Source of the DNA: Centroberyx gerrardi
Taxonomy: Eukaryota; Chordata; Actinopteri; Beryciformes; Berycidae
Reading direction: 5' to 3'
Assembly (NCBI RefSeq): GCF_048128805.1
Contig: NC_136012.1
Coordinates: 7,044,121-7,108,120 of the forward strand
Length of the DNA stretch: 64,000 nt
Below the pieces are notes generated by a model that saw nothing but the letters and a program-made list of their open reading frames with translations, searched no databases and was not told the DNA's origin. Below are positions 134 through 38,939 of this stretch, one piece after another; position 1 is the stretch's first letter, and each line of letters opens with the position of its first letter. Both the position numbers and the translations under genes were made by a program.

Positions 134-10100
<9,967 letters not shown>

Positions 10101-10254
10101 TTTCCTCTTCTATGAGGCGTGTGGTCAATAAACCCATTGCCAGTCATGTTTGGGTCTGCTGGTAAGAGATGACTGTGCTGCAGGTCCATGGTCTTGCCCA
10201 GGAAGCAATGATATTATTCTCAATGGAGAACCAGAGGAGAAAAAAAAAACGGTT

Positions 10255-23694: not shown

Positions 23695-31798
<8,104 letters not shown>

Positions 31799-36239: not shown

Positions 36240-36540
36240 TAGCATTCAATTAGCATTTTGACTAGTCATAATGTAATTAGAGATATCTGAATTAGCATTT
36301 TGACTAATCATAATGTAATCAGAGATATCTGAATTAGCATTTTGACTAATAGTGTAATTACAGATATTTGAAGTAGCATTTTGACTAATCATAATGTAAT
36401 TACAGATATCTGAATTAGCATTTTGACTAATAATGTAATTAGAGATATCTGAATTAGCATTTTGACTAATCATAATGTAATTAGAGATATCTGAATTAGC
36501 ATTTTGACTAGTCATAATGTAACTAGAAAAGGCTAAATTT
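36240..36540. repeat. 37-42-bp minisatellite, left block
   Basis: About seven units of ATCTGAATTAGCATTTTGAC followed by TAATCATAATGTAATTAGAGAT. Units differ by a 3-4 nt deletion (CTAATCATAATG versus CTAATAATG). One and a half further units of the same repeat sit at 38563-38615, on the other side of the hairpin-array element. Confidence 0.9.
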
Positions 36541-36555
36541 TCTAAAGAAAATTTA

Positions 36556-38562
36556 AGTGTGCTTGCCGCCCTTGCAATGCCCCTGCCCTTAGACTTGGCG
36601 TTCACTAGCTTTGCTAAGCGGTGCAGCATTGCAATTGTTAGCATTTTGACAGACTAGACTCAGTAAACAGAGCCAGTTGCGTTCAAAGGCACTGGGAAAC
36701 TTTTCTCATCACTGCACAGCAACATGTTTGGTATCGAACGAAACTACAGATTCCCAGCTTTCCAAGGATCCTAAACGCATCACAAAGTCGGCGCCGAGGC
36801 TGACAGAAAGCCCATGTGCGGAACTCATGGTCTCTGTCGCCATCTGCTGGCTGTGTCGAAGCACTGACATGAATGAGCTCGACCATTTCATTTCATGTCA
36901 TTTTATACAGTAAGGTCAAGTTATAAAAAATGCTGTCATCACATTGAAATGGTTACTATGAGGCCATATTTAATCACACATGAATGCAATTGGGCTCTTT
37001 GGATTCACAAGAGTCTCAGCTTTGCAGCCATACCCAATTTCTACAATTCCATGACTGTTTAGGTACCACAGTGTGCAGAAATAGGGAAAGAAAAAAAGGC
37101 GAGAATAACATCTTTTCACTGCATGCAGAACACTGTGTCTTTAGTACCCTGGAGCTCATATACCCTATGTAGCTGACATATGTCAGATATGGCTGTAAAG
37201 CTAAGACTCTTGCGGTTCTAATGAGCCATTCAGATATCTTGATGTGAGAGGTCAAGGGACCCGTTTGAAAATAGTCATGCCCATTTACCTTTGTCAAAAA
37301 CTTCGCCGACTTTGGAGCTATGTTACATAACATGGCTGGTACCTACGTATTTGTCTGGATGTGTAGTTTCCGATAATAAAAAACGCTCCGCTCTAGCTTC
37401 AAAACTGAGCTCGTGAGAAGCTCCGTTAAGCGTCGGCCGACGCGCAGAAACCACGATACTCTGTGTGTGTACCGTAGCTTCAGTTAGCTTCAGCTACTGT
37501 GTGTGAGAAACCAGACGTCCCGATCTCCGCCGCGCGGTTCGTCTGTCCCAAATGCATCAAGCCAGCCATTAAAAACTCCGCTGTAGACTTTTAATATACA
37601 GAATAAAAGTCCAAATACATCCATGCTGATCTGATTCTACCTTAGCTTCAGCTACTGAGTGGGAGGCTCCCGATCTCCGCGGAGAAACAAGGACAAAACC
37701 AAACACAGTGTGCTCTGCCTACGGCAAGCACACTAATAATAATAATAAGTATGTGAGATAATAAGAGTGTGCTCTGCCTACGGCAAGCACACTAATAATA
37801 ATAAGTATGTGAGATAATAAGAGTGTGCTTTGCCTACGGCAAGCACACTAATAAGTATGCAAGATAATAAGAGTGTGCTCTGTCTACGGCAAGCACACTA
37901 ATAAAAATAATAATAATAAGTATGTGAGATAATAAGAGTGTACTCTGCCTACGGCAAGCACACTAATAATAAGTATGTGAGATAATAAGAGTGTGCTCTG
38001 CCTACGGCAAGCACACTAATAAGAAGTATGCGAGATAATAAGAGTGTGCTTTGCCTACGGCAAGCACACTAATAATAAGTATGCGAGATAATAAGAGTGT
38101 GCTTTGCCTACGGCAAGCACACTAATAATAATAAGTATGCAAGATAATAAGAGTGTGCTTTGCTTGCAGCAAGCACACTAATAAGTATGCAAGATAATAA
38201 GAGTGTGCTCTGCCTACGGCAAGCACACTAATAAACAAAATGGCCGACAGTAACAATAAGAGTGTGCTCTGCCTACGGCAAGCACACTAATAAACAAAAT
38301 GGCCGACAGTAACAATAAGAGTGTGCTCTGCCTACGGCAAGCACACTAATAATAAGTATGCAAGATAATAAGAGTGTGCTCTGCCTACGGCAAGCACACT
38401 AATAAGTATGTGAGATAATAAGAGTGTGCTCTGCCTACGGCAAGCACACTAATAATAATAATAAGTATGCAAGATAATAAGAGTGTGCTCTGCCTACGGC
38501 AAGCACACTAATAATAAGTATGCAAGATAGTAAGAGTGTGCTCTGCCTATGGCAAGCACACT
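36556..38562. mobile_element. Candidate transposable element bounded by AGTGTGCTTGCCG inverted ends
   Basis: The left boundary AGTGTGCTTGCCG (36556-36568) is the exact inverse of CGGCAAGCACACT, the 3' arm of every hairpin in the array that forms the right end. About 1.15 kb of moderately GC-rich non-coding DNA lies between (36570-37700), followed by the 16-unit array. The same minisatellite family lies on both sides, consistent with insertion into it. No transposase ORF is present. A Helentron/HINE-like or other non-autonomous element is possible; the class is not established. Confidence 0.5.
37700..38562. repeat. Tandem array of 16 hairpin units (50-65 bp)
   Basis: Each unit carries AGTGTGCTCTGCC-TAC-GGCAAGCACACT: a 12-bp stem with one bulged base and a 3-nt loop. 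The spacer is (AAT)1-5 AAGTATGYRAGATAATAAG. Two adjacent units have a different spacer, AAACAAAATGGCCGACAGTA. Most substitutions fall in the bulge (C/T) or loop (TAC to TAT); one unit has a GCTTGCAGC top that still pairs. Spacer length varies mainly through the AAT count. Confidence 0.93.
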
Positions 38563-38939
38563 AATTAGAGATATCTGAATTAGCATTTTGACTAGTCATA
38601 ATGTAATTAGAGATGTCATTAGAGAACTGCCACTACTGGGCCGATACTGCTGAATTCTGATAGTGATGTCATCAGTGCAGCTGAGACGGGCTCTGATTGG
38701 TAAAGCAGATTCCATCCAACGATGTCATAATCAGTTAGAATGTCAAAGCGAAGCCATGTTCTGAGAAACAGCGGGCCAAGCCCCCGATTGAATGGCAAAA
38801 AATAATAATAATAAAGCAATAAAAGAATGAATGCATCAATGAATCAATGAATAACCAATAATAATGACCACCACTGGATGATCCATGTCAGGGTGCAGTC
38901 ATGGATTGCACCTTTGCTCTCTTGCTCATTAGCATATGT

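Follow-up and report, generated by a model that had tools for sequence, protein, structure and literature searches.

What is a row of sixteen nearly identical hairpins in the genome of Centroberyx gerrardi, and how did so many copies come to stand side by side? The row lies in a stretch of 64,000 nucleotides, here called the window, which was analysed as a whole. At 37707-38562 of the window, a 28-nt dyad unit with 12 pairs, one bulge and a loop of TAC or TAT is repeated 16 times in the same orientation, in agreement with the original prediction. When one unit and its flanks were folded as DNA, the predicted structure had 12 pairs and one bulge (-11.3 kcal/mol, z -7.1). The spacers between hairpins measure 22-37 nt, not 22-40 nt as first given; a spacer type unlike the rest, AATAAACAAAATGGCC, is common to two adjacent spacers, so that the differing spacer reported for two neighbouring units is real. 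Two units, rather than the single one first reported to break a pair, depart from Watson-Crick pairing in the stem, one by G6A (37937) and one by C12T (37872, a T.G pair). Elsewhere in the window, we found reverse transcriptase fragments on the minus strand at 29220-31309 (RVT_1, with a weak zf-RVT match below the cut-off), a 275-aa open frame with a RING-type zinc finger on the minus strand at 9282-10109, and a 30-bp/90-bp tandem repeat at 3410-3616.

An interspersed element of 2,040 bases (36523-38562) has the hairpins at one of its ends. By BLAST, the match to other copies sets in near 36520 and ends right past the last hairpin. The aligned copies open with CTAGAAAAGG, after which come a palindrome and then AGTGTGCTTGCC; at their far end, AA follows the last hairpin. 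The element sits in a satellite of about 7 copies of 42 bp (36248-36527), within which there is a near-palindrome, CATTTTGACTAGTCATAATG. When the two flanks of the element were joined, a 40-mer across the junction matched the 42-bp satellite elsewhere exactly, which identifies an empty site. Very probably, the window holds a non-autonomous rolling-circle element of the Helentron type (HINE) with a 5' palindromic subTIR present 16 times and a single 3' end; Helentron here takes in Helitron2, the name that would apply to the group if Rep/helicase carried no fused AP endonuclease. The features are as follows.

36248-36522, plus strand: 42-bp satellite forming the target, adjoining the element's 3' end (repeat analysis; empty-site match)
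36523-38562, minus strand: whole element, very probably a non-autonomous Helentron-like element (HINE) (similarity limits in copies; joined flanks restore the satellite)
36523-36534, minus strand: putative 3' terminal bases, with a CTAG end before TT (constant start in aligned copies; 115 genome-wide matches)
36535-36554, minus strand: 3' palindrome with 9-bp arms, AAATTTTCT / AGAAAATTT, 12 nt from the 3' end (sequence; alignment of ends)
36556-36568, minus strand: putative 3' subTIR, 33 nt from the 3' end (the longest stretch in common with the 5' hairpin is AGTGTGCTTGCCG, 13 nt)
37707-38562, minus strand: array of 16 tandem palindromic units, the putative 5' subTIR (unit count and place at one element end)
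38535-38562, minus strand: outermost (5' terminal) unit, preceded on the plus strand by a GTAAG-type spacer (spacer distribution among arrays)
38563-38564, minus strand: one TT, possibly part of the element
38565-38610, plus strand: the satellite again, beyond the element's 5' end (repeat analysis; empty-site match)

In the element body there is also a 40-nt inverted repeat (36993-37032 / 37188-37227), 83% complementary, with its arms 155 nt apart.

We compared 20 insertion sites, which are not fully independent of each other (one flank is common to L018 and L019, and in L022 one element stands head to tail behind another). TT flanked the element on both sides in 20/20 insertions without duplication beyond TT, and the minus-strand 5' flank read T-N-A-T-T (T in 19/20, A in 16/20, TT in 20/20). 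Apart from the constant AA on both sides, flanks matched each other little better than shuffled flanks; the TT is either part of the element or a 2-bp target duplication, the flanks being compatible with both.

We searched the genome (779 Mb, 278 contigs) with the hairpin pattern, allowing up to 2 mismatches. There were 668 matches (307 + 361), and none to the reversed pattern, used as the control, in the same genome at the same threshold. Twenty-two stretches (20 plus two more) were fetched, picked from the 100 of the 668 matches that were listed, all of them exact and on contigs C1-C4. The element's other (3') end, with its 115 matches genome-wide, was present within 5 kb and always on the same side for 20 of the 23 arrays tested; it was not found within 5 kb for the other three (two in L016, one in L028). 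The 20 two-ended elements were 1,081-3,393 nt long with 1-19 hairpins. Altogether 25 arrays were read, L029 and L030 included; these carry 1-23 hairpins (17 multi-unit, 8 single), with the longest, of 23 units, in L028. A many-kb stretch represented by L012 and L045-L051 is 99.8-100% identical on C2, C6 and C78, flanks included, and is a recent or larger segmental duplication or a set of assembly duplicates. A class-2 Rep frame near the L012 element is unsupported as its partner, that stretch being shared with identical or near-identical flanks on the same three contigs; no A-type hairpins, that is, hairpins of the window family, were found near class-3 Rep places among the matches listed (100 of 668, all exact; 100 of 208). 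A Helitron-like protein with DUF6570 and Rep domains (open frame reported as 2,481 aa), encoded in L045 (3973-6999) and L041, contains about a dozen tandem 18-residue peptide motifs (RYSQDAEFKQRQMSYVTS-like).

Units differed from each other by 2.60 per 47 nt within a locus and by 2.76 per 47 nt between loci. The arrays were therefore largely copied with the element and not homogenised in place, and the recent homogenisation once offered for the window is unsupported. In 11 of 17 multi-unit arrays the outermost hairpin is preceded by the GTAAG spacer, compared with 2 of 121 internal hairpins (Fisher p 1.5e-10, an optimistic value given shared ancestry). A multi-unit block is repeated in the array of L013, as expected from the earlier proposal that units spread in blocks. 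Judged from these sequences, the lineage of outermost units and the block repeats point to growth within the array as the best fit.

There is a real, if lesser, possibility that the arrays of the same element arose mainly through errors of rolling-circle replication or self-insertion at TNAT/T, rather than by slippage or unequal exchange. Such an origin has been proposed for elements with multiple 5' ends and a single 3' end, both for FoHelis (excerpt of PMC5148889) and for plant Helitrons (excerpt of PMC12628747). TNATT precedes 131 of 138 internal units, and six arrays have an outermost spacer of another type; together these allow for inner units having served as start or insertion sites too. 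In L022 (C3:34029000-34038900), two elements are directly fused head to tail (...CACACTAACTAG...), which is the junction that a circle or a tandem insertion would give. Against this account, the outermost unit is conserved while the inner units vary, and internal block repeats indicate growth inside the array.

Which end of the element does the array represent? The HINE plan fits the window element on the minus strand, and the array is therefore, as far as sequence can tell, its reiterated 5' (start) end, with the 3' end at 36523. The original prediction of an amplified, Helentron-type transposon terminus holds in this form; its identification of the hairpins with a 3' end does not. Polarity could be checked against coding sequences in a related family. 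Profile searches of the genome gave 129 matches for Rep (PF14214) and 125 for PIF1 (PF05970). Beside L018 and L019 there is a related 3' end, that of family C, with 322 matches genome-wide, 100 of which were listed. Among the listed ends, one lay 6.7-14.4 kb downstream on the expected strand for 56 of the 129 Rep places, and none lay downstream on the wrong strand for any of the 129; two listed ends are upstream of Rep places, within 25 kb.

Employing the 3' subTIR of family C, we predicted its 5' end before searching the genome. The predicted pattern had 519 matches and the control 0. Among the 100 of the 519 matches that were listed, 73 of the ...CTAA type were used and 27 of the ...CAAA type, several being 3' ends, were excluded. 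The 73 matches fell into 26 clusters, which were compared on C1-C4 with 42 of 44 Rep places and 23 of 26 listed 3' ends. Rep was located 7.7-18.9 kb downstream in 18 of the 26 listed clusters, on the same strand in 18/18, and a supplied 3' end was present in 14 of these 18, always on the expected strand. Each Rep-bearing cluster has 2-4 subTIR units, and in L052 (301 bases) a family C 5' end was read with four palindromic units in tandem. Among the places supplied, no Rep was found for 7/7 single sites or for one two-unit cluster (C4:34985497); by eye, the latter has a 3' end from outside the supplied set 3.2 kb downstream, as in a short non-autonomous copy. In a by-eye comparison of the lists, Rep and PIF1 had equal open-frame lengths (1,128 or 1,152 aa) in 9 of the 18 clusters and shorter or unequal frames in the other 9. 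A few fixed spacings recur among the clusters and many clusters lie near contig ends, so the copies of family C may descend from few insertions; the location of its Rep places and ends near contig ends suggests spread with subtelomeric blocks. With Rep and PIF1 between matching ends, family C is probably a related autonomous family of the A-type element; the tie between them is the similarity of their ends, and an autonomous element bounded by exactly A-type ends did not turn up in these searches.

It is improbable that the array is instead a reiterated 3' terminator, with many stop signals at the end of replication. On the plus strand the hairpin followed by CTAA does resemble a canonical Helitron 3' end, and Helentron open reading frames can run inverted relative to the ends (excerpt of PMC5148889), but the array of family C is upstream of Rep and the CTAG end downstream in 18/18 Rep-bearing clusters, 56/56 Rep/3'-end pairs among the listed ends oppose this polarity, and the HINE plan fits the element only with the array at the 5' end. 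We rejected the terminator reading on polarity relative to Rep in family C.

The assignment of the array to the 5' end of a HINE also agrees in most points with the structure of known elements. According to the excerpt of PMC4067079, HINEs insert at TT; their palindromic subTIR of 12-15 bp stands 2-4 nt inside the 5' terminus, and near the 3' terminus there are a palindrome, at a distance of 8-35 bp, and a mirrored subTIR, at 38-60 bp. Here, the 5' subTIR (12 pairs, one bulge) begins TT-AGTGTGC, 2 nt (TT) from the 5' junction. An inverted 13-nt copy, the putative 3' subTIR, is 33 nt from the end compared with 38-60 in mite HINEs, a point against the assignment. The 3' palindrome (9-bp arms) is 12 nt from the end, and insertion was at TT, with no duplication beyond it, in 20/20 insertions and at the empty site. 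A Rep and helicase partner lies between matching ends in family C, though not between exactly A-type ends. Asymmetric terminal inverted repeats with hairpins at both ends, by which Helitron2 is defined in the excerpt of PMC5148889, are also present. Canonical Helitrons (Helitron1) have a 5' TC, a 3' CTRR, a hairpin about 11 bp upstream and insertion between A and T. This class was rejected: the window element lacks a 5' TC in either orientation, its hairpin position differs, and the base after CACACTAA is T in only 16/20. Replitrons, which as described in a review excerpt have short direct terminal repeats and a 2-8 bp target duplication, were also rejected, as the ends here are inverted and duplication beyond TT is absent in 20 insertions (a 2-bp one would be compatible).

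A cut-and-paste or foldback element with terminal inverted repeats, one end of which had expanded, is very improbable. Inverted 13-nt copies at both ends would suit such an element. It is opposed by the absence of target duplication beyond TT, by the internal position of the inverted repeat at one end, and by the Rep and PIF1 helicase that a related family encodes between its ends.

The hairpins were originally held to mutate only where the stem is not broken. Across 163 hairpins, from the window and the 22 fetched stretches, this fails more widely: all 12 Watson-Crick pairs are kept in 142 of 163 (147 of 163 with G.T allowed). Changed cells numbered 11/2608 in the outer stem, 55/1304 in the inner stem and 77/652 in bulge and loop. 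One four-change variant in 22 copies, which swaps C-G for T-A, accounts for 44 of the 55 inner-stem changes, leaving 11/1128 without it. In 144 spacer cores, all within 5 mismatches of the consensus and hence biased to conservation, there were 25/2448 changes outside a two-base CpG-like site, which alone had 133. With the CpG-like site set aside, stem conservation within the family is barely above that of the spacer, the outcome that had been named in advance as counting against a preserved fold. Between families the fold fares better. Each family's 5' hairpin has more nucleotides in common with its own 3' subTIR (13 in A, 13 in B, 19 in C) than with those of the other families (5-11 nt); the B hairpin was taken from two places, that of C from a single locus that was read. 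Covariation between families is the main support for the fold, the case within the family being weak.

An ordinary minisatellite that forms hairpins by chance, unrelated to a transposon terminus, is hardly credible: stem and spacer are alike in conservation without the CpG-like site and block duplications are typical of minisatellites, but a free-standing satellite is contradicted by the element boundaries with both ends (the other one on the same side in 20/23 arrays), the empty site and, opposite the array, an inverted match to the hairpin arm at the second end.

Elements that combine several 5' ends with one 3' end have been described before; the arrays described here appear to be a stronger form, earlier reports being smaller in scale. 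HINEs/Helentrons of mites, Culex and some Drosophila (excerpt of PMC4067079) likewise have a 5' palindromic subTIR, a mirrored 3' subTIR, a 3' palindrome, TT insertion and Rep/helicase in a partner family, whereas one 5' subTIR is drawn per element in that excerpt and up to 23 occur here. FoHeli1/2 of Fusarium insert between TNAT and T, and FoHelis have terminal hairpins and several 5' termini with a single 3' end, as found here; the examples in the excerpt of PMC5148889 show a single repetition of their first 73 or 85 nt, compared with units of 50-65 nt up to 23 times here. Plant centromeric Helitron arrays (Xiong et al. 2016, as cited in the excerpt of PMC12628747), explained by rolling-circle amplification, also have multiple 5' ends and a single 3' end, but their units are truncated Helitrons rather than the terminal palindrome alone. 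Cg_HINE elements of the Pacific oyster are likewise non-autonomous Helentrons with tandem arrays; as excerpted from PMC7492417, those arrays lie between flanking modules and are not the subTIR itself, which is what is reiterated here. Distinct in the present case are the unit number, the terminal palindrome as the unit and the presence of the array in an autonomous family too. Among the titles listed in literature searches, none concerned reiterated 5' ends in fish, and of five end or hairpin strings sought in the literature one occurred, in a single paper that by its title deals with cell trafficking. Viral contigs contained no match to either hairpin.

By analogy with known Helitrons, a related autonomous element would supply Rep/helicase, which would nick at a 5' unit; unwinding would proceed through the body and stop at the 3' subTIR and palindrome, and a circular intermediate would then insert. 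Slippage, or unequal exchange among the near-identical palindromes of the array, may have added 5' units, possibly assisted by aberrant rolling-circle replication, and the added units would then have been propagated together with the element. Most units carry TNAT/T, the kind of site where such elements start and insert. This, together with the 2-4 units in the autonomous family and the conserved outermost unit, leads us to put forward, as a speculation that is rather unlikely to be correct, that the array is a working launch array: Rep would start at any unit, progeny would vary in their 5' ends, and array length would tune transposition.

If so, the array would be a maintained feature of this group of elements and not debris. 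If the multiplied 5' end works, the copies would offer natural donors with 1 to 23 start sites for studying the choice of start by a rolling-circle transposase. The arrays also illustrate how a dispersed minisatellite can be seeded by nothing more than a transposon terminus, and through the end signature the genome's non-autonomous copies can be linked with a Rep/helicase family.
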